From an uncultured Rhodospirillales bacterium (GTDB lineage: Bacteria; Pseudomonadota; Alphaproteobacteria; Azospirillales; Azospirillaceae): 51,754 nt of DNA. The stretch spans positions 1-51,754 of the forward strand of contig CAIOBP010000056.1 of assembly GCA_903856295.1 (NCBI GenBank), in the 5' to 3' direction. This document shows positions 18,873 to 35,671 of the stretch, piece by piece. The notes beneath the pieces were generated by a model, which was not told where the DNA came from, searched no databases, and saw only the letters and a program-made list of their open reading frames with translations. Each line of letters starts with the position of its first letter. The first letter of the stretch is position 1. A program made the position numbers and the translations under genes.

Positions 18873-21170
<2,298 letters not shown>

Positions 21171-21944: not shown

Positions 21945-22352
21945 TCAGGACTTGGCCGCGCGCTCGCGCAGGAATTTTGCCAGCCTCTTGTCGGAGGTGG
22001 TGACGTGCTTCACCACCCAGTTGTCGATGAACCCGGCAACGCTCATGAGGTCGTCATCGGCGGCTTCTTCGATCATTTGCAAGAACTTGCCCAACCCGCC
22101 CAACAGCATCCGATGCTCATCGATGTGAGCCGTGGTATCGGTATAGCGCGCCTCGACCATCAACTGGTTTTCGCGTTCGAAATGCGCGCTGAAGCGAACC
22201 GATATTTCATCAATATCATCATAGATACTGTGCTTGTCGGCGCCCGCCTTGACAGATTCGAAAAACTCACAGACAAGGGACATCAGCTCCCGGTGATCCC
22301 GATCGATCAGATCGTGCCCGACCAGCAGGGACTCGTCCAGTTCGAAGCGCAT
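21945..22352 (-). CDS. Bacteriohemerythrin
   Basis: A 135-residue single-domain hemerythrin that binds O2 at a non-heme di-iron site. All seven ligands can be placed: His20 (IDRDH), His57 and Glu61 (HFERE), His76 and His80 (HIDEH), His116 and Asp121 (KHVTTSD). Such proteins store or deliver O2, or sense it, in microaerobic bacteria including magnetotactic and methanotrophic groups. No signal peptide or partner domain is seen, so it is a soluble cytosolic protein. The ATG at 22352 has GGAGAG upstream; an in-frame extension to 22424 is unlike the family. It is divergent from the ABC ATPase gene, 117 bases away. Confidence 0.94.
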   Translation of the reverse strand: MRFELDESLLVGHDLIDRDHRELMSLVCEFFESVKAGADKHSIYDDIDEISVRFSAHFERENQLMVEARYTDTTAHIDEHRMLLGGLGKFLQMIEEAADDDLMSVAGFIDNWVVKHVTTSDKRLAKFLRERAAKS

Positions 22353-23342: not shown

Positions 23343-25046
23343 ATGGATCATGGCGCCTGCGCACCTTGCGCCGACCGCTCGGCCGGCCGCGAGCCCAGGA
23401 CCGAGCCCAGGGGCCGTCAGGTCGAACCGGCGGCGCTGGCCGAAGTCCGGGCGCTGCTGGGCGGCCGTCCGCGCCGGCGCGATCTGCTGATCGAGCATCT
23501 CCACCTGATTCAGGATTTCTATCACGGCCTGAGCGCCCGCCACCTCGCCGCGCTGGCCAAGGAAATGCGTCTGCCCTACGCGGCGGTGTGGGAGGTGGCC
23601 AGCTTCTACGCCCATTTCGATCTGGTGCCCGATGGCGCGCCGATGCCGCCGCCGGTCACCGTGCGCATCTGCGAGAGCGTCGCCTGCGCCATGAAGGGCG
23701 CGGACCGGCTGCTCGCCGAACTCGAGGGATCGCTCGGGGCCGGTGTCCGGGTGGTCAAGGCGCCGTGCATGGGACGCTGCGAGCAGGCGCCGGTCGCCCA
23801 GGTCGGCCATAATCACATCGGCGACGCCACCCCGGCAGCGGTGCACAGCGCCATCGAACGCGGCCAGTTCCAGCCCGCGATTCCGCCCCATCTGGATTTC
23901 GCCGACTACAACGCCGCCGGCGGCTACAGCCTGCTGCGCGAATGCCTCGCCGGCCGGCGCACACCCGAGCAGGTGATGAACGCCATGGCCGAATCGGGGC
24001 TGCGCGGCCTGGGCGGCGCCGGCTTCCCGGTCGGCCAGAAGTGGCGGCTGATTTCGGCCCAGCCCGCCCCGCGCCTGCTCGCGGTCAATGGTGACGAGGG
24101 CGAACCCGGCACCTTCAAGGACCGCTCCTATCTGGAAAGCGACCCGCACCGGATCATCGAGGGTATTCTGGTCGCGGCCTGGGCGGTCGAAATCGAGACC
24201 ATCGTGATCTACCTGCGCGATGAATATCCCGGCGCGCGGGAGATTCTGGCGCGGGCCATCGCCACCGTCACCGCCTCGGGGCTGGCCCAGGGCCGCGACA
24301 TCCAGTTGCGCCGGGGCGCCGGCGCCTACATTTGCGGCGAAGAATCGGCGATGCTCGAGTCGATCGAGGGCAAGCGCGGCCTGCCCCGGCACAAGCCGCC
24401 CTACCCCTCGGAAGTCGGACTGTTCGGCCGTCCGACCCTGATTCACAACATCGAAACCTTGTATTGGGTGCGCGACATTCTGGAACGCGGCCCCTCGTGG
24501 TTTTCCAGCCAGGGCCGCAACGGCCGGCGCGGCCTGCGCAGCTTCTCGGTCTCGGGCCGGGTGCGCAATCCCGGGGTCAAGCTGGCCCCGGCCGGCATCA
24601 CGGTGCGCGAACTGATCGACGAGTTCTGCGGCGGCATGGCGCCGGGGCACACCTTCCGGGGCTACCTGCCCGGCGGCGCCTCGGGCGGCATCCTGCCGGC
24701 CCGACTCGACAGCCTGCCGCTGGATTTCGGCACCCTGGAGGCTTACGGCTCGTTCATCGGCTCGGCGGCGGTGGTCGTGCTCTCGGACCAGGACGATGTC
24801 CGCGAAATCGCCCGCAACCTGATGCGCTTCTTCGCCGAAGAAAGCTGCGGCCAGTGCTCGCCCTGCCGGGTCGGAACGCAAAAAGCCGTGGAGCTGATGG
24901 AAAAACCGGTGTGGGACGAGGTGCTGCTGACCCAACTCAGCGAAGCCATGCGCGACGCTTCGATCTGCGGCCTGGGCCAAGCCGCGACCAACCCGCTGCT
25001 CTCGGTGCTGAAATACTTCCCGGAAGACGTCAAGCGGGGAGCCTGA
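23343..25046 (+). CDS. Fused NuoE/NuoF-type NAD-dependent formate dehydrogenase beta subunit
   Basis: A 567-residue fusion. Residues about 30-165 are a NuoE-like thioredoxin-fold [2Fe-2S] domain with Cys110 and Cys115 (CESVAC) and Cys142 and Cys146 (CMGRC). Residues about 190-565 are NuoF-like: GLRGLGGAGFPVGQKW binds NADH, GDEGEPGTFKDR and AYICGEESAMLESIEG bind FMN, and ESCGQCSPC (near 500-508) with a later CGLG Cys holds a [4Fe-4S] cluster. The same two-domain fusion occurs in the beta subunit of the W-containing FDH1 of Methylobacterium, which passes electrons from formate to NAD+. The catalytic molybdopterin subunit is absent on both sides. FdhD lies 6.4 kb away. Hydrogenase or other NADH modules are alternatives. 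The ATG at 23343 has GAGGACA upstream. Confidence 0.87.
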   Translation: MDHGACAPCADRSAGREPRTEPRGRQVEPAALAEVRALLGGRPRRRDLLIEHLHLIQDFYHGLSARHLAALAKEMRLPYAAVWEVASFYAHFDLVPDGAPMPPPVTVRICESVACAMKGADRLLAELEGSLGAGVRVVKAPCMGRCEQAPVAQVGHNHIGDATPAAVHSAIERGQFQPAIPPHLDFADYNAAGGYSLLRECLAGRRTPEQVMNAMAESGLRGLGGAGFPVGQKWRLISAQPAPRLLAVNGDEGEPGTFKDRSYLESDPHRIIEGILVAAWAVEIETIVIYLRDEYPGAREILARAIATVTASGLAQGRDIQLRRGAGAYICGEESAMLESIEGKRGLPRHKPPYPSEVGLFGRPTLIHNIETLYWVRDILERGPSWFSSQGRNGRRGLRSFSVSGRVRNPGVKLAPAGITVRELIDEFCGGMAPGHTFRGYLPGGASGGILPARLDSLPLDFGTLEAYGSFIGSAAVVVLSDQDDVREIARNLMRFFAEESCGQCSPCRVGTQKAVELMEKPVWDEVLLTQLSEAMRDASICGLGQAATNPLLSVLKYFPEDVKRGA

Positions 25047-25087: not shown

Positions 25088-26866
25088 TCAGCCCGGAGGC
25101 GGAGCCTCGGGAGCTTCGGGGGCGAGCACGCGGGGAAAGCGCAGGACGAAGCGGACCCCCCGCCCCTCCTGGGACTCAAGATCGATGCTGCCGCCCAGCT
25201 TGCCGGTCACCAGATTGTAGATGATGTGCAGGCCGAGTCCGGTGCTGCCCGAGTTGCGCCGGGTCGTGAAGAACGGATCGAAGACCTTGTCCAGAGTCGC
25301 GGAGGCGATGCCTTTGCCGTCGTCGGTGTAGGACAACTCGACCCTGTCGTCTTCGATCCGGGTGGCGGCAATGGTCAGCACGCCGCTTTGGCCGGGATCG
25401 AAGCCGTGAACGATCGAATTCATGACCAGATTGGTCAGAATCTGGGAGATGACTCCGGAGTAGCCATCCAGTTCGATCGGTTCGGGACAATCGATCTCAA
25501 CCCGGTGCCCCGCCTTGCGCCAAACCGGCCCCAGACTCACCACCGTGTCGGACAACCACTCGCACAGCTCGAAGGTATGGCGTTCGTCGCTGACCTGATC
25601 GGCGGCCACCTGCCGGAAACTGTGCACCAGATCGGCGGCGCGCCGGAGATTGGCCAGCATCAGCTCGCAGCCTTCGCGGGCGCCGGTGACATAGCGCTCC
25701 AGGTCGCGCCGGCGCAGCCGTCCGGCCTCGAGATCGACGGTCAATTCGCCCACCCGCTCGAACAGCAGGGACGCCATGGTGACGGCGATGCCGAGCGGCG
25801 TGTTGATCTCATGGGCGACCCCGGCGACCAGACGGCCGAGCGAGGCCAGCTTCTCGGCCTGGATCAAGCGGTTCTGGGCGGCGAGCAGGTCTTCGAGCGC
25901 GTTTTCCGCCTGATCGCGCGCCGCCTTCAGCGCCCGCTCGGTCCGGACCTGCTCGCTGGCGTCGACGGTGACGACCAGAAACCCGAAATCGCTATGGGGC
26001 GAGCGGGAGGCGTTGACGAAACGGTCATCGACGGTAGGAAACACCGAGGTGATCGTCTCCTCGGGACGGGAAGCGTACCACGCCATCCGCTCGGCGATGC
26101 GGCGCTCGATATCGCACTCGCCATACATGCCATGGGCGGCGGCCGGACGCAGGCATTCCGAAAGCCGGCCGCCGGGATAGAGGAACTGCTGGGTGAAACC
26201 GGCGACCTTGTTGACGTTCTTGTTGACCGCCGTGATGAGAAAATCCGGCTTGCCACCGGGGATCGGCTTGAGCAGAACAATGCCGGCCGGCACATTGTCC
26301 ATGATCAGGTCCATCCGGGCGGCGGTTTCGGCCAGTTGGCGCTCCAGGGCGCGTAAGCGGATCAGCGTGCCGACCCGGGCGATCAGCTCGGCGGCATCGA
26401 ACGGTTTGACCAGATATTCGTCGGCGTCGCGCCCCTCCCCGGACAACCGGGCCAGTTCGGCGCGGCTGGCCATGAGAATCACCGGCACCTCGCCGAGGGA
26501 GCCGGGATTGTCCTTGATCGCCGCGCACAAGGCGGGGCCGTCCATGGCCGGCATCGAGACCGCGGCCAGGACCAGATCCGGCGGATCGCGGAGGGCGGCG
26601 AGGTATCCTTCCCGCCCGTCGCCCGCGGTCACCACCCGATACCCCGTGCCCAGCCGCGAAATGATGAACCGGCGCGTGTCGGCACCGGGATCCACCACCA
26701 GCACCACCGGTTGCGAGCAGCTGACAACGCCGGCAAAGGTCAGGGCGGCATCGGCGTCGCTCACCTCTTCGAAGCGGGCGCGTGTCCGCGCCTCCCCGGC
26801 CGCCGGGCGCAGCCGCTTGCGGCGAAACCGCAGGGCAAAGGTCTCGGAATGAAACGACCCGGTCAT
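25088..26866 (-). CDS. Sensor histidine kinase with N-terminal pseudo-receiver
   Basis: A 592-residue soluble kinase. Residues about 53-170 are a receiver-like domain (VVLVVDPGADTRR, then DEYLVKPFDA with the conserved Lys), but the phospho-acceptor position is Ala102 in VLAAVSMPAMDG, and the Thr/Ser switch is MAS. Residues about 185-305 look like a PAS fold (MDNVPAGIVLL). A short coiled coil leads to the H-box GVAHEINTP with His352. The ATPase has N, G1 (TDDGKGI), F (DPFFTTRR) and G2 (GLGLHIIYNLV) motifs. I chose the ATG at 26866 with GAGGT upstream. It is 119 bases downstream of the second unknown gene on the same strand. No response regulator gene is in the window. Its catalytic core is closely related to the kinase at 33377. 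Confidence 0.9.
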   Translation of the reverse strand: MTGSFHSETFALRFRRKRLRPAAGEARTRARFEEVSDADAALTFAGVVSCSQPVVLVVDPGADTRRFIISRLGTGYRVVTAGDGREGYLAALRDPPDLVLAAVSMPAMDGPALCAAIKDNPGSLGEVPVILMASRAELARLSGEGRDADEYLVKPFDAAELIARVGTLIRLRALERQLAETAARMDLIMDNVPAGIVLLKPIPGGKPDFLITAVNKNVNKVAGFTQQFLYPGGRLSECLRPAAAHGMYGECDIERRIAERMAWYASRPEETITSVFPTVDDRFVNASRSPHSDFGFLVVTVDASEQVRTERALKAARDQAENALEDLLAAQNRLIQAEKLASLGRLVAGVAHEINTPLGIAVTMASLLFERVGELTVDLEAGRLRRRDLERYVTGAREGCELMLANLRRAADLVHSFRQVAADQVSDERHTFELCEWLSDTVVSLGPVWRKAGHRVEIDCPEPIELDGYSGVISQILTNLVMNSIVHGFDPGQSGVLTIAATRIEDDRVELSYTDDGKGIASATLDKVFDPFFTTRRNSGSTGLGLHIIYNLVTGKLGGSIDLESQEGRGVRFVLRFPRVLAPEAPEAPPPG

Positions 26867-26985
26867 CTCGGCTACCTCAATGAGCCGCGCCATCGCTGGC
26901 AAAGCTGTCGGGACTCTATTGGATCGCTCAATAATTGGCAATCACGGCCTGTGGGGCGGCGCACTTCCCGGCTGGCGAGCAGGAC

Positions 26986-28110
26986 TCAATTTTTCGGAGC
27001 CGCTGCGGACAAGCTCGCCTTGCTCATTTCAATCCGGCGCACTTGCTCGACATCCACGACACCACTGCGCCAGTCCGTATGTGGCTGGACACGCCGGCGC
27101 TGAACGACCGAGAGGGCTTCCATCTTTTGCGCGCCCCCGCCATCCCGGACCGCACTCGGGATGATCGGCAGGCGCGGCAACAAATCAACCACCAACTCGG
27201 CCTGCTGCTCGCGACTCGACCGCTGCGCGGCGCGATGGAAGCGGACCGGACCTCCCCAGCCATCGAGCAGCCAGGACAGATCAAGCATCGAGGAGATCAG
27301 ACGCTCGCTGTAAGTGTCCCAGGAGGTCAGGAAATTGATCAGCGACGCCATCATGATGTCGATCTGACCGATCTTCTGGGTCACCAGCCCGTGAATAAGA
27401 TTCGCGGTGTCGGCCTCGAACTCGGCGAGGGTGGACACATCATCCAGCCCCATCTCCGAATACTCGCGCAAGGCATCGCGCAACCGCCCGACCTCCTCGG
27501 CCATTTGCCGGAGGTAGCCGGCCTCGCAGGCGGAGCCCAGCCCCAGCGGCGAGACCAGGGCTGCCAGCACCTCGATCCGGGTGTGCAATTCATCATGCTG
27601 AATCTGCAACGAGGCCGCCAGATCCAGCAGCGCCGCCTTGATCTGGCGCTGAACGGATTCGCTGTGCAGGCTGGCCACGCTGAGATCGGGCTCCGGCATG
27701 TTCGCCGCCTTGAGCAGGGACAGCGTCAGGGTAAACGTGGTGTAGAGCTGATATTGCTGAACCTCTTCAATGTCTTCCCTGGCCTTGCGCGCCGCCACCG
27801 GGCCGGATATTCCGGTGGCGGTCACCTGCAACTCGGCCGTGCGCATCATCAAAGGCGTGCTGACATCCTGCTTCTCCACCAGATCGTACAGCAGACGATC
27901 GAACATGCTGATCGGCATCATCGCCCGGATCGCCGGCCATGATAGCACGTAATTCCCCTGCCCCCCCGAAGGATTAGGCAGCAGAAACTCCCGCCCTCCC
28001 TGGCCCCGGCGCAAGCGCGCGAAGGCGAGTTCCGGCGTGGTGAACGGAACGGCCATACCCCGCTCCGCCCAGGTCTTGGGATGGAAATCGCTATGCTTCA
28101 ACGACCTCAT
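26986..28110 (-). CDS. Unknown protein B in signalling cluster
   Basis: A 374-residue protein that I do not recognise. Its first 60 residues are Pro- and aromatic-rich (FHPKTWAERG, AVPFTTPELAFARLR, LLPNPSGGQGNYVLSW) and look like a conserved strand-rich lead domain. Residues 65-290 are mostly amphipathic helices (LYTTFTLTLSLLKA; LREYSEMGLDDVSTLAEFEADTANLI) with no transmembrane segment. The last 70 residues are basic and low in predicted structure. No Walker, nuclease, protease or helix-turn-helix motif is visible. It starts 22 bases after the stop of unknown protein A, and the two are almost certainly co-expressed. The ATG at 28110 has GAGAGC upstream. Cytosolic location is inferred from the lack of a signal peptide. 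Confidence 0.8.
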   Translation of the reverse strand: MRSLKHSDFHPKTWAERGMAVPFTTPELAFARLRRGQGGREFLLPNPSGGQGNYVLSWPAIRAMMPISMFDRLLYDLVEKQDVSTPLMMRTAELQVTATGISGPVAARKAREDIEEVQQYQLYTTFTLTLSLLKAANMPEPDLSVASLHSESVQRQIKAALLDLAASLQIQHDELHTRIEVLAALVSPLGLGSACEAGYLRQMAEEVGRLRDALREYSEMGLDDVSTLAEFEADTANLIHGLVTQKIGQIDIMMASLINFLTSWDTYSERLISSMLDLSWLLDGWGGPVRFHRAAQRSSREQQAELVVDLLPRLPIIPSAVRDGGGAQKMEALSVVQRRRVQPHTDWRSGVVDVEQVRRIEMSKASLSAAAPKN

Positions 28111-28132
28111 GGATAAGCTCTCGAGTGTGGCA

Positions 28133-29539
28133 TCAGGCCCCGATCGCCTGATCCATGGTCTTGAAGTGCGTGAGCAGAACCCGTTGCGCCTGATCGGGAC
28201 CGGCGAGCAGTTCGACCAGCCGCACCAGGAGCACCAGCCGCCGCTGGCACCGTTCCGGGCCGGGGCCGAGCCCCTCGCCGTAGCGCATGACTTTCTCGCA
28301 AATCTCTTTCAGCCGGTCCCCCAGTTCCCGCTTGATCCCGATGGTGTCGGCGAAGCCGGCGCAGCGTTTCAGGGACTGCGCGCACTCGTCGACGCATTTC
28401 TCGAGGCGGAACTCCGCCTCCTCGTCGCTCGCGCCATCCCCGAGGTTGATCGTCAGGGCTTGCAGCGCTGCGGCCATGCTGTCGTCGAGCGCGACCGTCA
28501 GCTTGTCGACGACGAAGGTGCCGATGTCGGTACGGGCGGCAGCGACCTGCTCGCGGAGGTTGCCCCGCCCGCCATCGGCCGATTGCTCGAGGGACAGCAG
28601 CCGGGAGACCAGTTGCTCGGTCGCCTGGGAAGAGCGGTTCGGGTCGGTGATCGCCTCGACATCGCGCATCTGCGCAGCTTCGCCGGCAACCGCGGCCACG
28701 GCGCTACCGCCCAGCTTCCGCACCAGAGTGAGGCGCGCGGACTCGTCGATCCGCACAACCGGACTCGAAATCAGCTTGATCATGTCCCCGGGATAACTCA
28801 TCCGCGCCATGATCACGCAAACAAAGCTCTCAAGGCCGACCAGGGAAACCTCGGCAAGATCATTGATGACTTTCCTGAGCAGGGTCTCGGAGAACTCCGA
28901 CAGCGCCATGATCGGCCGCGCCGGCAGGCGCTGCTTGACCAACTCGATTTCCGGAGCGACCAGAAGAATATCGGAGAACTGGGCAATCTGCCCCAGGATA
29001 TCCTTGGTGATCTCAAGATCGCAGCCGTCGACACGGCGCCGGCCGGATACGCTCACACCACCGATATAGTCAGAGAGCACCTCACCCACGCGCTTCCAGA
29101 ACATCTTCCCGATCTCGCAAACGCCTTGCGTGTCCGATGCCCCGATATCACGCAGATCATCGGTTGCCGCCTGCACCGTATCGGGATCGCACGCGAGCAA
29201 AATCTGCCAGCACGGCTTGATAAAGGCGCGCGACAAACGGCCGGGCGCCAAATGACGGGGCTCCTGGGACACCAGCACGTCTTCGGCGGGAAGAAACAGC
29301 AGACGCTGCGCCGTCATTTTCCGGGGTGGGCGCAACTCGAACAGCCGCGGACGCAGGCGACGCCGAAGCTCCTGGGCCTCGCCGGTCCCGGGCGCGCTCT
29401 CGACCAGCGACAAAACGCGGAGCAACTTCTCATCCGGCAGCCCAAGGCTGGCGACAGCGACTTCCCGCCATTCCGAAAGCTCATCCGTCGCCACGCGCTG
29501 CCCGCCTTTTCCCTGCCCGCACCATACATTAGGTTGCAT
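28133..29539 (-). CDS. Unknown protein A in signalling cluster
   Basis: A 468-residue protein without a recognised domain. Residues 25-110 contain a conserved-looking block (WREVAVASLGLPDEKLLRVL, QRLLFLPAEDVLV, PGRLSRAFIKPCWQIL). The remainder is helical, with a string of about eight amphipathic helices and a Cys-containing helix EKCVDECAQSLKRC near residues 385-400. No transmembrane helix or signal peptide is seen. The start is uncertain: the ATG at 29539 is used, but a GTG at 29494 has GGGAAAAGGCGGG upstream and may be the true one; a GTG at 29557 has none. It follows the EAL gene by 154 bases and precedes unknown protein B by 22. The helical-repeat look suggests a scaffold or adaptor, which is inference only. 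Confidence 0.78.
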   Translation of the reverse strand: MQPNVWCGQGKGGQRVATDELSEWREVAVASLGLPDEKLLRVLSLVESAPGTGEAQELRRRLRPRLFELRPPRKMTAQRLLFLPAEDVLVSQEPRHLAPGRLSRAFIKPCWQILLACDPDTVQAATDDLRDIGASDTQGVCEIGKMFWKRVGEVLSDYIGGVSVSGRRRVDGCDLEITKDILGQIAQFSDILLVAPEIELVKQRLPARPIMALSEFSETLLRKVINDLAEVSLVGLESFVCVIMARMSYPGDMIKLISSPVVRIDESARLTLVRKLGGSAVAAVAGEAAQMRDVEAITDPNRSSQATEQLVSRLLSLEQSADGGRGNLREQVAAARTDIGTFVVDKLTVALDDSMAAALQALTINLGDGASDEEAEFRLEKCVDECAQSLKRCAGFADTIGIKRELGDRLKEICEKVMRYGEGLGPGPERCQRRLVLLVRLVELLAGPDQAQRVLLTHFKTMDQAIGA

Positions 29540-29693
29540 CGTATCGTTACTGGCCACTGCACATCAAGAAGAAAAAAGAGCGACCCGGCACACAAAATTT
29601 TGGCTGGCATAACATGTCCAGCAACAGGAAGATTGCAGGCGGAGTTCGGAAGTTCCGAGGTCAAATCCAGGCGCGGCAAGCGCCAGACCAAGA

Positions 29694-31358
29694 CTAGGGC
29701 CTGCGGAATAAATCGATATTCGGCAGCGGAGTGAAATCGTTGAAATTGCGCGAGGGCTTGCCGAAGAGGAAGCCCTGGACATAATTGCAGCGGCAGTCGC
29801 GAACAAAGCGCAGGCTTTCCGGACTGTCGATCATCTCGGCGATGGTCTCGACCCCGAGCCGTCCGCACAATTCGGTCAGCGCCGACAAAAAGGCCCGGCC
29901 CTTGGGTGCCTTGCGCGCGTTATGCACGGCGCTGCCGTCGATCTTGACGACATCGACCTCGAGAGCGCTGAGATATTGAAAGCTGGCCGCCCCGGCACCG
30001 AAATCATCAAGACAAACCTGATAGCCAAGCCGGCGCAATCCTTGAATGAATTCATTGGCGGCGACCAGATCCGTCATCCGGGACGATTCGGTGATCTCGA
30101 ACAGCAACCGGTCGACTGTCCATGGATTGTCGCGCAGCAACTTGTGGAGCCCCTGGACATATTCGGGCATGCCGATGGAAAATCCGGAAATATTGACCGC
30201 GACCGAGAATTTGCTGTTGTTGACCGGCATCCGCCGCAGCCATTGCACCACCTTGGCCGCCATGGCCAGATCGAATTCGTGAATCAGGCCGATTTCCTCG
30301 GCGAAGGAAATGTAGCGATACGGCGACTCCTCCGGGGCCGCGACGTCGAAACGGCACAGCGCCTCGAAATGATGAATCGCCCCCGACTTGACATCGATGA
30401 TCGGCTGGAGCGCCATCAAAAAGCTTTTGTCCTTCAGGACTTGGCGGAAATCCCGGATATCCGTAATTCCCTGGGAGATCAGCGCGGATATATTGTCGGT
30501 CAGCGAGGACAGATTGAAACCGGCCCCGCTTTTCTTCTGGAAAGAGCTGAGAGCATACATCAGCCCCTTGGCCAAATCCTGCTCACTGATGCCACGCGCC
30601 GTATCCATGTCCACGGTGGAGTGGGTGATCTCCAGCGCCTGATCCGGCGACGCCAGCGGACGCACCGCTTCCAACAACTGGTTTCTCAGCGCCGCGACAT
30701 CGAGCGAGGGATCATGGAGCAGACCGAAGGAATCGCCGGCGATCCGAGTCACGGTCTCGCCATCCAGCGCGCTCTGGCCGAGACACCCCCCGATCGACGA
30801 CATCAGCGAGCGCGACTCCGGTTCGCTCAGCCCCTCGCTGAGTCCCGACAGTCCGGAAATGTCGAGCACGGTGATTTCGGCGCTCCGCCCCTGCCGCTCC
30901 AACTCCTTGATGCGCTTGCCGGCCTCGCGGGAGAAGGCGTCGCGGTCGAGAAAGCCGCCGCTTTCGGTCCCGGCCACCTCCGGCTCGACCGTGCCGGTGC
31001 GCAACCGGAAGGCGACATAGAAGCGCTCGTCCATGCAGTAGCCGGCCATGCTGACCGGCAGCAACGCCGAGGCGCCGCGCCGGATCTGGGCGGTCCCGCC
31101 ATCGACCCGGCCGCGACTGCGCAAGGCCTTGAGAAAGCGGGCGAGCGTGGGAACGTCGGAGGGAGCCATCAGATCGAACAGCGGCTGCCCGATCACCCCG
31201 TCGGGTGCGACGCCGGCGAATTCCTGCACCGGCCCGGCGCAAAACAGCACCGTGCCCGCGTGATTCAGTTCGAACAGCAAATCCCCCCAGCAGAAAGCCA
31301 GGGCGGCGTAGCGGTTGCGCTCCCGTTTGCTGGTCCTGGCGTCCGACGTGACGGCCAT
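29694..31358 (-). CDS. PAS-GGDEF(degenerate)-EAL cyclic-di-GMP phosphodiesterase
   Basis: A 554-residue soluble signalling protein. Residues about 18-125 form a PAS-like sensor. Residues about 138-285 are a GGDEF-type domain whose active loop reads AGDSF instead of GGDEF, so it should not make c-di-GMP. Residues about 300-540 are an EAL domain with the metal and catalytic residues present: FEAL near 331, NISGFS, ITESS, DDFGAG near 456, VKIDGS, ETIAEMI and QGFLFGKP. It should hydrolyse c-di-GMP to pGpG, perhaps with GTP or the PAS ligand as regulator. The ATG at 31358 with AGGGAGA upstream is preferred to a start 30 bases earlier. It lies between fdhD (95 bases upstream) and unknown protein A on the same strand. 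Confidence 0.93.
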   Translation of the reverse strand: MAVTSDARTSKRERNRYAALAFCWGDLLFELNHAGTVLFCAGPVQEFAGVAPDGVIGQPLFDLMAPSDVPTLARFLKALRSRGRVDGGTAQIRRGASALLPVSMAGYCMDERFYVAFRLRTGTVEPEVAGTESGGFLDRDAFSREAGKRIKELERQGRSAEITVLDISGLSGLSEGLSEPESRSLMSSIGGCLGQSALDGETVTRIAGDSFGLLHDPSLDVAALRNQLLEAVRPLASPDQALEITHSTVDMDTARGISEQDLAKGLMYALSSFQKKSGAGFNLSSLTDNISALISQGITDIRDFRQVLKDKSFLMALQPIIDVKSGAIHHFEALCRFDVAAPEESPYRYISFAEEIGLIHEFDLAMAAKVVQWLRRMPVNNSKFSVAVNISGFSIGMPEYVQGLHKLLRDNPWTVDRLLFEITESSRMTDLVAANEFIQGLRRLGYQVCLDDFGAGAASFQYLSALEVDVVKIDGSAVHNARKAPKGRAFLSALTELCGRLGVETIAEMIDSPESLRFVRDCRCNYVQGFLFGKPSRNFNDFTPLPNIDLFRRP

Positions 31359-31453
31359 CGCGGTCTCCCTGCTGCGCCCCACGCGCACGTGCCGGGGACC
31401 CTACGACGGCAAACCGGAAAATGCGACTCTCGATCGATGAACCCAGCAATGCC

Positions 31454-32272
31454 TCACGGCTCGGCGTCGAAGATCACCCGCTGCGCCCCCGAGAGCACGG
31501 TGAAGCGCTTGCCCCGCGCCCGGCCGATCAAGGTCAGATTCGCCTGCCGCGCCAGTTGCACGCCCCAGGCAGTGAAGCCCGAGCGCGACACCAGAATCGG
31601 CAACCCCATCCGCACCGTCTTGATCACCATTTCGCTGGTCAGGCGGCCGGTGGTGTAGAAAATCTTGTCGTCGGCCGCGATCCCCCGCCGGGCCATGACC
31701 CCGGCGATCTTGTCGACGGCATTGTGCCGGCCGACATCCTCCATGAAAAACAGCGGCGCGCCCTCGTGACAGAGCACACAACCATGAATCGCGCCCGCCG
31801 CCAGATAGAGGCTGGGCGTGGCGGTGATCCGGCTCGCCAGGGAATAGAGCCAGCTGGCGCGGATGCGCGCGTCGTCTGACAAGCGGGCCTGGGCGAAATT
31901 TTCCAGCACATCGCCGAACGCCGTGCCCTGGGCGCACCCGGAGGTCAGGGTCTTGCGTTTGAGTTTGGTCTCGAAGTCTGTGCGCCGCTCCGTGCGGACC
32001 ACCACCGCCTCGACCTCGGGATCATGCTCGATGGCGGTGACGGCGTCGTCCGGCCCCAGCATGTTCTGATTGAGCAGATAGCCCAGCGCCAGCTCTTCGA
32101 CATAATCCCCGATGGTCATCAGGGTGACGATTTCCTGGCCATTGAGAAACAGGGTCAGCGGCCGCTCGACCACCACCGGCATCTCGACGCTCCGCCCCGC
32201 CTGATCGATCCCTGTCACCCGTTCGGTCAGGCGCGGATCGTCGGGATCGGGCTGAATGGCATAGGACGTCAT
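31454..32272 (-). CDS. fdhD: Formate dehydrogenase accessory sulfurtransferase FdhD
   Basis: A 272-residue FdhD protein, which carries sulfur from IscS to the Mo/W-bis-pterin cofactor of formate dehydrogenase. Recognised by ERPLTLFLNGQEI, the TSGCAQGTAF active loop, the GAPLFFMEDVGRHNAVDK signature, YTTGRLTSEMV and the final LSGAQRVIFD. The catalytic CxxC of E. coli FdhD (CGVC) is here CAQG, leaving one Cys; this single-Cys form also exists in other lineages. The ATG at 32272 fits the family start; upstream codons belong to the intergenic gap. It is the first gene of a minus-strand run leading into the EAL gene, and is divergent from the substrate-binding protein gene 256 bases away. Confidence 0.94.
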   Translation of the reverse strand: MTSYAIQPDPDDPRLTERVTGIDQAGRSVEMPVVVERPLTLFLNGQEIVTLMTIGDYVEELALGYLLNQNMLGPDDAVTAIEHDPEVEAVVVRTERRTDFETKLKRKTLTSGCAQGTAFGDVLENFAQARLSDDARIRASWLYSLASRITATPSLYLAAGAIHGCVLCHEGAPLFFMEDVGRHNAVDKIAGVMARRGIAADDKIFYTTGRLTSEMVIKTVRMGLPILVSRSGFTAWGVQLARQANLTLIGRARGKRFTVLSGAQRVIFDAEP

Positions 32273-32528: not shown

Positions 32529-33380
32529 ATGATCGTTGGGCGTTTTGGCCTGGGCTTGGCCGCCTTCGCTGTGGCCGTGCTGCTTGCGGCCGCCCCGGCG
32601 CGGGCCGACGACGTGATCCGGGTCGGCACCTACCGCCATTATCCGCCCTGGACGATCAGCGATGCCGCCGGCACCATCACCGGCTTCGAGATCGACCTGA
32701 TCCACGAATTGTGCCGGCGCATGGGCGCCAAATGCGAGATCGTCACCGTCGACTGGGAAAAGGTCTATGACGAGCTGGACGCCAGCAAATACGACGCCTA
32801 CATCGGCTGCATGACCGTCACCCCCGAGCGGAGCAAGCGCGTCACCTTCAGCCAGCCCTACGCCCTGACCCCGGAATATTTCGCGACCAAGAACGGCAAC
32901 GATCTGACCACCCTGCTGACCCTCAACCGGCTCGATCTCGATCGCATGAACAGCGAGGAGGAGGCGACGCTCACCACCCTGATCGCCGCCCTCAAGGGCA
33001 AGCGGGTCGGCGTTCATGTCGACACCGTTTATGAGACCTTCGCCAAGCAGTACCTGACCGGCGTCTCCGACGTCCGCATCTATCACGCCGAGACCGAGAA
33101 ATACGCCGACATGGTGAGCAGCAAGCTCGACGCCATTCTCGATGGCGGCGCCGCGCTCCACGAGTTCATCCTGTCCAAGGATGGCGGCGGCTCCGCCCTC
33201 ACCCTGTTCGGGCCGGCCCTGATCGGCGGGCCGTTCGGGCATGGCGTCGGGGTGGCGATGCGGCTCGGCAATGAGGGCCTGCGCCAGCGCTTCGACGACG
33301 CCATCGCCGCCACCAAGACCGACGGCACGCTGTCGCGGCTGGCGTTGACTTGGTTCGGCTACAACGCCGCCTCCGAATGA
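32529..33380 (+). CDS. Family 3 periplasmic solute-binding protein
   Basis: A 283-residue periplasmic binding protein of the amino-acid type (SBP family 3). A signal peptide (1-26, ending PARA/DD) is followed by IRVGTYRHYPPWTISD, GFEIDLIHELCRRMG and the family pattern YDAYIGCMTVTPERSKRVTFSQPY, then a second lobe with KGKRVGVHVDTVYETFAKQYL. Ligand is probably a small polar amino acid or related compound. No permease or ATPase gene is adjacent. Its stop overlaps the start of the histidine kinase gene (ATGA), which suggests that it serves as a sensor component rather than a transporter subunit. The ATG at 32529 has AAGGGGGG upstream; an ATG at 32508 is possible. Confidence 0.92.
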   Translation: MIVGRFGLGLAAFAVAVLLAAAPARADDVIRVGTYRHYPPWTISDAAGTITGFEIDLIHELCRRMGAKCEIVTVDWEKVYDELDASKYDAYIGCMTVTPERSKRVTFSQPYALTPEYFATKNGNDLTTLLTLNRLDLDRMNSEEEATLTTLIAALKGKRVGVHVDTVYETFAKQYLTGVSDVRIYHAETEKYADMVSSKLDAILDGGAALHEFILSKDGGGSALTLFGPALIGGPFGHGVGVAMRLGNEGLRQRFDDAIAATKTDGTLSRLALTWFGYNAASE

Positions 33381-35671
33381 CCGTGCCGGCGGACGTCATG
33401 GCCGAACCGTCCGGGGAACCGGTCGCACTCTCCCCGGCCGCACTCTCCGACGAAGCCGCGCCCGGCGCCCGGCCCCGGCGGGGCTTCGGCATCCGGTACA
33501 AGATCCTGATCGCCTTCCTGGTGGTCGCCGCCATGGTCGTGACCTCGGGCGTGGTGGCGTGGCTGTCGCTGCGCCGGATCGAGGCCAAACTCGCCGAGGT
33601 CGTCCATCATGCCGTGCCGGCGATGAGCATCGCCGAGGCGCTGGCGGTCGAGGCCTCCGCCATCGTCGGCAGCACCGCCACCCTGACCGCCGCCCTCACC
33701 GAGGAGCAGCGCGAAGCCCTGATGCTCTCGCTGGCCGGTCAGATCGAGGGATTGAACCACCGGCTGAGCGAACTGGCGGAGATCAAGGTCGACGAGCCCG
33801 TGCTCGCCGCCCTGCGCGAGCGTATCGCGAAGCTGTCCACCAATCTCAACCGCCAGGGCAATCTCGTCGGCCTGCGCATCTCCCTGGCCAGTCAGGTCCA
33901 TGGCGACGCCACCCAGCTCGCGCTCAGCCACAAGCAGTTTCTCGCCGCCGTCGATCCGCACATCGAGGAAACCTACCGCTCGCTGTTCACCGGCATCAAG
34001 ACCCTGGTCGCCGACCTGGGCGCGCCGCCGCCCTCGACAAGCGCCGCCCCGGCCCAGCCGGCGCCACCCGACGCCACGGTGCGCCTGGAACCCGCCCGCC
34101 AGGAGCCGACCCGCCAGGACATGGAGGTTTTGCAGCGCCGGATCGCCCTGCTGTTCAACCGCAATGTCGGTGAAATGCTGGCGCTGCTGCAACTCGCGGC
34201 CGCCGGCAACCTCGCGGCCGGTCTGCTCAACGAGGTGATTCTGGTGACCGATGCCAGCCAGGTTCACCAGCTGCGCAACCGCTTCGGCGAAATCACCATC
34301 GCCATGGGCGCGATCCGCCTCAACCTCGCGACCACCCCAGCCAATCAGGTGCTGCTCGGCCTGACCACGCCGATGCTGCAATACGGCCTGGGCAGCGACA
34401 ACCTCTTCGACCGCCGCCTGCGCGAACTGGAGCTGATCAACGCCTCGGACGCCGTGGTCACCGAGAACCGCGCGCTGTCGGCCGACCTGACCGTGGCGGT
34501 CGGCCAGCTGGTCGCCGCCGCCCGCGCCGAGGCCGAACGCTCGGCCAGCGCCGTGGAACAGGATGCCGCCTACGCCCGGCTGATGGAAACCGTCGCCGCC
34601 CTGTTCGCCATGGTGATGACGGTGCTGATCGGCTGGCGCTACGTCGGACGCCGGATCATCGGCCGCCTGCTTGCCCTGCAACAGGCGATGGAAGGCGAGG
34701 CCGCCGGCCGCGAAATCGTGATTCCCGACGTCGGCGAAGATGAAATCGGCGAAATGGCCGGCGCCCTCAATCACTTCGTCAGCCGGCGCAAGCAGGCCGA
34801 GGCCGACCTCCGCAGCGCCAAGGAACACGCCGAGAGCGCCTTCGCCGAACTCAAGGAGCTTCAGGAAACCCTGGTCCAGGCCCAGAAGATGGCCGCGCTG
34901 GGCCGGCTGGTCGCCGGAGTCGCGCATGAACTCAACACGCCGGTGGGAGTCTGCCTGACCGCCGCCTCCCTGATGACCGAAAGAACCGAGGACCTCGCCC
35001 GCAGCTTCGAGGCCGGGCAGCTGCGCAAGTCCAGCATTCAGGACTATCTCGGGGTGGCGACCGAAATCTCGACCCTGGTCCGCACCAATCTCGAGCGGGC
35101 CGGCGACCTGATCCGGGTGTTCAAGCAGGTGGCCATCGATCCCGGCGAGGATGAGCGGCTGATGTTCCAGGTGCGCGATCAAATCGACAATGCGCTCGGG
35201 CTGCTCGCCGACAAGATGCGGCCCAGCCCGCACAGCGTGATCGTCGACTGCCAACCCGGGCTGACCATCGACGGCTTTCCCGAGGCGCTGCGCCAGGCGC
35301 TGACCGTGCTGATCGACAACACCCTCACCCACGCCTTCACTGCCGACAGCCCCGGCACCATTACGATTACCGGCTCCGCCTCGGCGCCCCTTACCGGTGC
35401 GGACGCGCCTCCCGGCTCCGTCGTGCTCACCGTCGCCGATAACGGCGCCGGCATCCCGCTCCAGGATCAGCCCCACCTGTTCGAGCCCTTCTTCACCACC
35501 CGGCGCGGCCGGGGCGGCTTGGGGCTGGGGCTGCACATGGTGTTCAACATCGTCACCTCGGTGCTGGGCGGGCGCATCGCCGTCGAATCCCAGCCCGGCC
35601 AGGGCAGCCGCTTCACCATCACCATCCCCAGCCGCTCCCCCGCCGCCGCCTCGCTTGGCCAGAGGAGATAG
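33377..35671 (+). CDS. Membrane sensor histidine kinase coupled to a binding protein
   Basis: A 764-residue inner-membrane kinase. Transmembrane helix 1 is about 41-64 and helix 2 about 409-430; between them lies a large helical periplasmic sensor domain of about 340 residues (HBM-like or TorS-like, with a Pro/Ala-rich insert near 217-240). A HAMP segment (about 431-485) and a coiled coil lead to the H-box GVAHELNTP with His517. The ATPase has ADNGAGI, LFEPFFTTRRGRGG and GLGLHMVFNIV. No receiver domain is fused and no response regulator is nearby. The ATGA overlap with the upstream binding-protein gene ensures balanced synthesis, as for TorT/TorS-like pairs. The kinase core is related to that of the kinase ending at 25088. 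Confidence 0.93.
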   Translation: MTVPADVMAEPSGEPVALSPAALSDEAAPGARPRRGFGIRYKILIAFLVVAAMVVTSGVVAWLSLRRIEAKLAEVVHHAVPAMSIAEALAVEASAIVGSTATLTAALTEEQREALMLSLAGQIEGLNHRLSELAEIKVDEPVLAALRERIAKLSTNLNRQGNLVGLRISLASQVHGDATQLALSHKQFLAAVDPHIEETYRSLFTGIKTLVADLGAPPPSTSAAPAQPAPPDATVRLEPARQEPTRQDMEVLQRRIALLFNRNVGEMLALLQLAAAGNLAAGLLNEVILVTDASQVHQLRNRFGEITIAMGAIRLNLATTPANQVLLGLTTPMLQYGLGSDNLFDRRLRELELINASDAVVTENRALSADLTVAVGQLVAAARAEAERSASAVEQDAAYARLMETVAALFAMVMTVLIGWRYVGRRIIGRLLALQQAMEGEAAGREIVIPDVGEDEIGEMAGALNHFVSRRKQAEADLRSAKEHAESAFAELKELQETLVQAQKMAALGRLVAGVAHELNTPVGVCLTAASLMTERTEDLARSFEAGQLRKSSIQDYLGVATEISTLVRTNLERAGDLIRVFKQVAIDPGEDERLMFQVRDQIDNALGLLADKMRPSPHSVIVDCQPGLTIDGFPEALRQALTVLIDNTLTHAFTADSPGTITITGSASAPLTGADAPPGSVVLTVADNGAGIPLQDQPHLFEPFFTTRRGRGGLGLGLHMVFNIVTSVLGGRIAVESQPGQGSRFTITIPSRSPAAASLGQRR

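Follow-up and report, generated by a model that had tools for sequence, protein, structure and literature searches.

Trigger phosphodiesterases such as PdeR and PdeL of Escherichia coli, as described in PMC5052742, contact their protein partners directly, and this contact is modulated by the binding or cleavage of cyclic di-GMP (c-di-GMP). We analysed a locus at which control of this kind may act on two proteins, A and B, that match no named family. The locus lies in the 51,754-nt contig CAIOBP010000056.1 (assembly GCA_903856295.1) of an uncultured Rhodospirillales bacterium of the Azospirillaceae; the whole contig is called the window here, and the region studied spans positions 25088–32272. 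On its minus strand, the gene for a putative phosphodiesterase of PAS-degenerate GGDEF-EAL architecture (the EAL protein) directly precedes the genes for A and B. Our preferred reading, held tentatively and a little short of an even balance, is that A and B form a helical adaptor complex, that EAL-A-B acts as one unit, and that the fast-evolving window copy is controlled by the EAL protein.

Gene order across genomes indicated that A and B belong together. Among 120 B loci (a count that includes repeats of one genome), 102 had the order B>A, 8 had A>B and 10 had no A gene within 700 bases, so that 110/120 were paired; the A>B order in this set was confined to the window and seven loci of the genus Skermanella, a name that rests on S. 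aerolata (G060). Furthermore, ten single open frames of 812–847 amino acids (aa), found in three metagenome-assembled genomes (MAGs), carried B first and then A. These fused genes stood in tandem arrays of three or four (L134:1531–9418, L141:3385–11902 and L146:1545–11999), and copies within one array mostly fell into different clades of the B tree, with two L141 copies close to each other; none of the remaining 92 B>A pairs was fused. The occurrence of two proteins in both fused and split forms is classical evidence for a joint complex. Because of the consistent pairing and the ten natural fusions, we consider it highly probable that A and B bind each other and form one complex, which bears out the first-pass annotation where it had treated the adjacent genes as a pair.

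Protein A is encoded at 28133–29539 if translation starts at an ATG (468 aa), or at 28133–29494 if it starts at a GTG (453 aa). Since comparison with relatives placed the starts of A homologues downstream of ATG 29539, GTG 29494 is probably the real start, and the gap between the EAL gene and A would therefore be 199 bases rather than 154. Protein B (26986–28110, 374 aa) comprises a small N-terminal sheet and a helical bundle. For A, no match was obtained in Pfam, NCBIfam, PADLOC or PHROGs; for B, no family was obtained in NCBIfam, PADLOC or PHROGs, and Pfam yielded a single match at chance level (E 0.072). Similarly, when 41 A and 43 B members were compared with Pfam, no family fitted and only stray single matches appeared. 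RefSeq labels three B-A pairs of Azospirillum relatives as hypothetical proteins, and no paper in the open-access collection searched mentions the six A/B accessions or locus tags checked, although the pair could still be published elsewhere. The A and B families are new to the libraries searched, and for these two proteins the first-pass choice of the run as the leading candidate for an undescribed system was sound.

AlphaFold2 models of both proteins were confident (mean predicted local distance difference test score 92.6 for A and 87.9 for B), with about twenty helices in A and a three-stranded N-terminal sheet followed by helices in B; the earlier description of both as mostly helical holds, A being all-helical and B having the small sheet in addition. 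Foldseek searches with the two models gave no match at E 0.001, an absence that does not imply a new fold. By structural comparison, B resembled BAR domains and designed bundles (Z up to 8.1), which we regard as common arrangements, and A resembled designed repeats (Z up to 10.5) and importin beta (9.8), values that helical repeats commonly reach without being related. Against PDB sequences, the best matches were stray helical ones (E 0.0055 with B, E 0.018 with A). Sequence and profile searches returned no family for either protein, in agreement with the first-pass annotation, which had named no motif in A or B and had counted a match to a well-known family with another role as evidence against its proposal.

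Specific relationships were also considered and rejected. A comparison of A with B showed no relationship between them (hhalign E 0.2–0.4). The N-terminal arginines and an SGG loop of B recall PilZ, yet 0/43 B members matched PF07238 at E 0.01, the model has three strands only, and a profile comparison of B with five PilZ domains of its own genome gave E 0.85. Nor was membership of A in DUF2336, an idea suggested by L201, supported: 0/41 A members matched PF10098 at E 0.01, and hhalign gave E 0.65 over a thin alignment. A carries a conserved N-terminal motif, RPRL..LRPPR..T..RLLF.P.E, and residues R49, R57, R63, P68, R88, R424 and E427 (numbered from position 29491) were invariant over 41 sequences; in B, numbered from its second residue, R16, G17, R31, D70, P85, G99, W279, D282, G283, W284, P314 and P317 were invariant over 43.

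We surveyed 59 genomes at a threshold of E 1e-3: the one that holds the window, relatives of it and further members of the class. A was found in 33/59 and B in 31/59, the own genome included in each count; two of the A genomes were marginal (G037 and G043), and the remaining A and B genomes all belong to the window's own family. Across the class, the B profile matched 26 of 289 sampled genomes. In named genomes, 106 B loci were confirmed and 80 of them kept, with carriers in Azospirillum, Niveispirillum, Skermanella, Thalassobaculum, Acetobacteraceae such as Rhodopila, and one Geminicoccaceae MAG. The window's own genome holds a second A-B pair (G000:C101), 38% identical to the window copy in A and 42% in B, and single genomes carried up to five B genes, the six matches in G010 including one split gene. 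Because these paralogous copies have differing neighbours, the data suggest that A/B is an adaptor used in several settings. Under the preferred reading, Rhodospirillales and related Alphaproteobacteria would possess a hitherto undescribed helical adaptor complex with A and B as its two subunits, present as one to several paralogous copies per genome. Some arrangements departed from the simple pair: at L070:8719–12679 and L117:4099–8062, both in the Skermanella genus, an additional, divergent B gene that lacks an A partner faces the A>B pair, and orphan A-like genes without B occur in L188, L189, L190, L192, L193, L215 and L216, each adjoining the same two genes, which by sequence resemble glpX and recJ.

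The end branches of the window copies were long, 1.14 for A against 0.25 for the C101 copy and 0.89 for B against 0.11, and the invariant residues were retained despite this length. Multiple copies, tandem arrays and fast divergence could also be explained if A and B were a conflict pair, of the toxin-antitoxin or immunity-like kind; up to five B genes per genome, the arrays of fused genes and the long branches of the window copies would all fit. We nevertheless judge this explanation very improbable: A, B, the EAL protein and the neighbouring kinase had no PADLOC match at E 0.1 and there was no PHROGs match, a search for phage families that did not extend to the neighbouring genes, and fusions suit a complex better than a toxin with its antidote.

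The EAL protein is encoded at 29694–31358. It matched Pfam EAL at E 1.6e-63, with a weak PAS match and a sub-threshold GGDEF match, and is assumed to be soluble. Compared with a canonical GGDEF-EAL protein, the EAL catalytic residues are kept (ExL, NxS, E.TE, DDFG, KxDG, AE and QG), and the GGDEF site is degenerate, reading AGDSF. From the retained residues, we infer that the protein is a phosphodiesterase. Its best NCBIfam match was NF045675 (DibA-type), at 147 bits over the degenerate GGDEF and EAL parts.

We then asked how often a gene of this type stands beside A/B. The window's arrangement, EAL>A>B with all three genes on one strand, recurred in G010, G019, G030 and G034, four of the five Skermanella-genus genomes. 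In each of them, 23 of 27–36 candidates were scored against the window EAL, and the linked EAL protein was the single one to match at E 1e-60. A further case, L109, has a lone B and, after it, a gene for an EAL protein that shares the PAS-degenerate GGDEF-EAL architecture and was practically tied with one other in that genome as best match to the window EAL. One pentapeptide-repeat gene (L182:4028–5299) separates B-A from a canonical GGDEF-EAL gene at L182; in L299, a gene near an A gene resembles, by eye, another pentapeptide protein. The genome of L109 also has an EAL fragment at a contig end (L302:11234–11527, G059:C539); it stands two genes away from an A gene that has no B, on the opposite strand, and is outside the neighbour counts, which used B loci only. 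The same EAL type was also seen at L201:3846–8162 (G041), where the next two genes encode a PAS-GAF-GGDEF and a DUF2336 protein; these products (465 and 423 aa) resembled A and B by size and were rejected as such.

A neighbour test was performed on 145 unique B loci, with genes called by a codon-usage script (some genes were missed in L058 and L146), EAL and kinase genes tagged by phmmer with the window sequences at E 1e-4, a setting that distant kinases can escape, and related genomes counted separately unless lineages are named. The EAL type accounted for 6/251 genes directly adjacent to A/B and for 0/1207 other fetched genes (Fisher p 2.5e-5). The p value was 0.005 when three lineages were each counted once and 1.6e-4 for the five loci that remain without the window. 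From the genome-wide numbers of B and EAL-type genes, 0.029 adjacencies would be expected in 31 genomes (the window's excluded), and two independent ones were seen (P 4e-4); with the 80 loci leading to L109 added at the mean rate, the expectation is 0.061 (P 0.002), figures that treat related genomes as separate and define the EAL type by the window's own protein.

Phylogenetic analyses separated these occurrences. In a tree of 76 B rows, the B of the window clusters with that of its own genus (support 99/91), far from the EAL-linked B of Skermanella, and a single clade of window and Skermanella EAL-linked copies was rejected by the approximately unbiased (AU) test (p 3.9e-5). The A tree (37 rows) similarly placed the window A with its genus's own A (100/100) and rejected a joint clade with the linked A of Skermanella (AU p 4.7e-5). 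In the EAL tree (28 rows), the window EAL groups with orthologues of its genus that lack nearby A/B (G001, G002 and G004), the Skermanella and L109 proteins fall in other clades, and the linked EALs span three supported clades; the outcome of an AU test with the EAL proteins is in part trivial, since the kin of the tested rows include orthologues without A/B. The EAL-adjacent state requires a minimum of three changes on the B tree. Because the A, B and EAL trees separate the lineages and the B tree needs three changes, it is very probable that the EAL-A/B arrangement arose on more than one occasion.

The window copy is a fast-evolving second A/B copy directly downstream of a PAS-degenerate GGDEF-EAL gene, and EAL-A-B would, on the preferred reading, act as one unit. 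In the mechanism we propose, the EAL protein would bind and hydrolyse c-di-GMP, and binding or cleavage would alter its contact with A, B or both, switching the complex in the manner of a trigger phosphodiesterase. Judged from the recurrent gene order, it is an evenly balanced question whether the EAL protein is a dedicated regulator of A/B in the window and in Skermanella. A bolder version, in which A/B is a new class of EAL-controlled effector complex (a B-A heteromer that some species carry as a fusion), repeatedly placed by gene rearrangement under dedicated PAS-degenerate GGDEF-EAL proteins and with several c-di-GMP-gated copies that evolved independently, we consider unlikely.

Several observations weigh against control by the EAL protein. 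EAL genes adjoin B at only 6/145 unique loci, all of the window EAL type, and among 36 stretches from a class-wide draw (including at least two repeats of known loci, L263 = L114 and L270 = L130), none had an EAL gene beside A/B among the called genes. The EAL orthologues of G001, G002 and G004 (54–57%) lie on contigs other than those with A/B; in Skermanella aerolata, A-B has no adjoining EAL and a gene that by eye is CRP-like stands upstream instead. The lone B of L109 lacks an adjoining A, the A genes of that genome being elsewhere, and of the five A and five B genes of G059 only two share a contig as neighbours, so linkage of A with B is not obligatory. No c-di-GMP-binding motif was recognised in A or B. 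The gap between EAL and A is long (154–199 bases) and co-transcription is only presumed, and the window genome is in 255 contigs, so that a chimeric join is possible. Without the window, the neighbour test on two lineages against 0 is weak (p 0.03).

These points bear on the possibility that A-B stands free of the EAL protein as an adaptor or scaffold complex with a separate job, its EAL neighbours reflecting chance or shared regulation without contact. Most pairs adjoin other, differing genes, and the separation of EAL orthologues from A/B in three genus mates and the weak lineage-collapsed test are as this explanation would have it. It accounts less readily for the same EAL type having come to stand, twice in the same order, beside A/B in lineages that the A, B and EAL trees keep apart, or for two adjacencies outside the window's genome where so few were expected. 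We regard a free-standing A-B as a serious possibility, though on the whole doubtful. The first-pass annotation had linked the EAL protein to A and B; this linkage recurs in three lineages but is rare, and in preferring EAL control we rely on its recurrence.

The other two genes of the run gave a different picture. The fdhD gene (31454–32272), for a formate dehydrogenase accessory sulfurtransferase, matched TIGR00129 at 152 bits (cut-off 140.9) and Pfam FdhD-NarQ. At the other end, 25088–26866 encodes a histidine kinase with a pseudo-receiver and a PAS domain (Pfam Response_reg, PAS_7 and HATPase_c), in which the phospho-acceptor Asp of the receiver is replaced by Ala. All five minus-strand genes of the first-pass annotation were recovered, with gaps of 95, 154, 22 and 119 bases between fdhD, EAL, A (from ATG 29539), B and kinase; the likelier A start is the one correction. 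GC content was 0.60–0.65 across the B, A and EAL genes (window 27000–31000) and mostly 0.66–0.70 over 20–36 kb, with further dips near the locus (0.62 at 21000 and 0.64 at 32000).

Tight packing on one strand would suit a single five-gene module that subjects A/B both to c-di-GMP turnover and to phosphorylation, as had been proposed, and a receiver unable to take phosphate at the usual Asp could suit regulation by contact. Kinases, however, were not enriched beside A/B (4/251 adjacent genes, the window's own included, vs 17/1207 non-adjacent, p 0.5), and the closest relatives of the window kinase, G003:C190 and G001:C46, are on contigs without A or B matches, the former 0.2 kb from a contig end so that one flank is unseen. 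The kinase also belongs to a family with 8 matches in its own genome at E 1e-60. A promoter-like site stands directly upstream of the kinase gene, but with 3 sites of this kind against an expectation of 1.2, their number is close to chance. Nothing was found that ties fdhD to A/B, and another fdhD-like gene, 3 kb from a pair in L067, is taken as chance. We therefore reject linkage of the kinase to A/B and give the five-gene module very little credence. As the evidence stands, we count the kinase and fdhD as bystanders; what survives of the original proposal is the A/B pair and, in part, the EAL protein, with EAL-A-B as the candidate unit.

Further genes were noted around the run. A second histidine kinase (window 33377–35671) shares its kinase core with the first (E 5.7e-62), and the run thus sits between two kinases of one family; the gene before the second kinase (32529–33380) resembles, by eye, a periplasmic solute-binding protein. 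A single gene at 23343–25046, 6 kb from fdhD, has NuoE-like and NuoF-like parts, a combination that we take to be that of the diaphorase subunit of soluble formate dehydrogenases. A hemerythrin gene lies at 21945–22352, and the second A-B pair of this genome (L053) has a similar gene (39/134 residues identical) at a distance of about 1.1 kb.

Compared with described systems, the EAL protein comes nearest, among NCBIfam entries, to the DibA-type phosphodiesterases (NF045675), but its 147 bits fall far below the cut-off of 980. HEAT-like superhelices such as importins and the exocyst protein Exo70 gave middling structural matches to the C-terminal half of A, with no sequence relation found. DUF2336 (PF10098), presumably a helical HEAT-like family of obscure role, has one member in G041, encoded by the second gene that follows an EAL gene of the window type, and this protein showed weak HEAT matches; no A member matches PF10098. 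The open-access collection searched contained no paper linking Skermanella EAL domains or DUF2336 to c-di-GMP. The B family reaches 26/289 genomes of the class, some named carriers are multi-copy, and the checked records call A and B hypothetical; with the fusions, the repeated EAL neighbour and the separate origins, the two proteins move from blanks to a testable complex with a proposed input.

The closest functional parallel would be the trigger phosphodiesterases. Like them, the EAL protein has intact catalytic residues and would exert control by contact in response to c-di-GMP; unlike them, its partners A and B match no named family, the contact and its dependence on c-di-GMP are proposals, and the GGDEF site is degenerate. 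The signalling logic proposed for A/B-EAL is of an already known kind; if true, it would add an unknown partner class to EAL signalling, in a pairing that evolved more than once.

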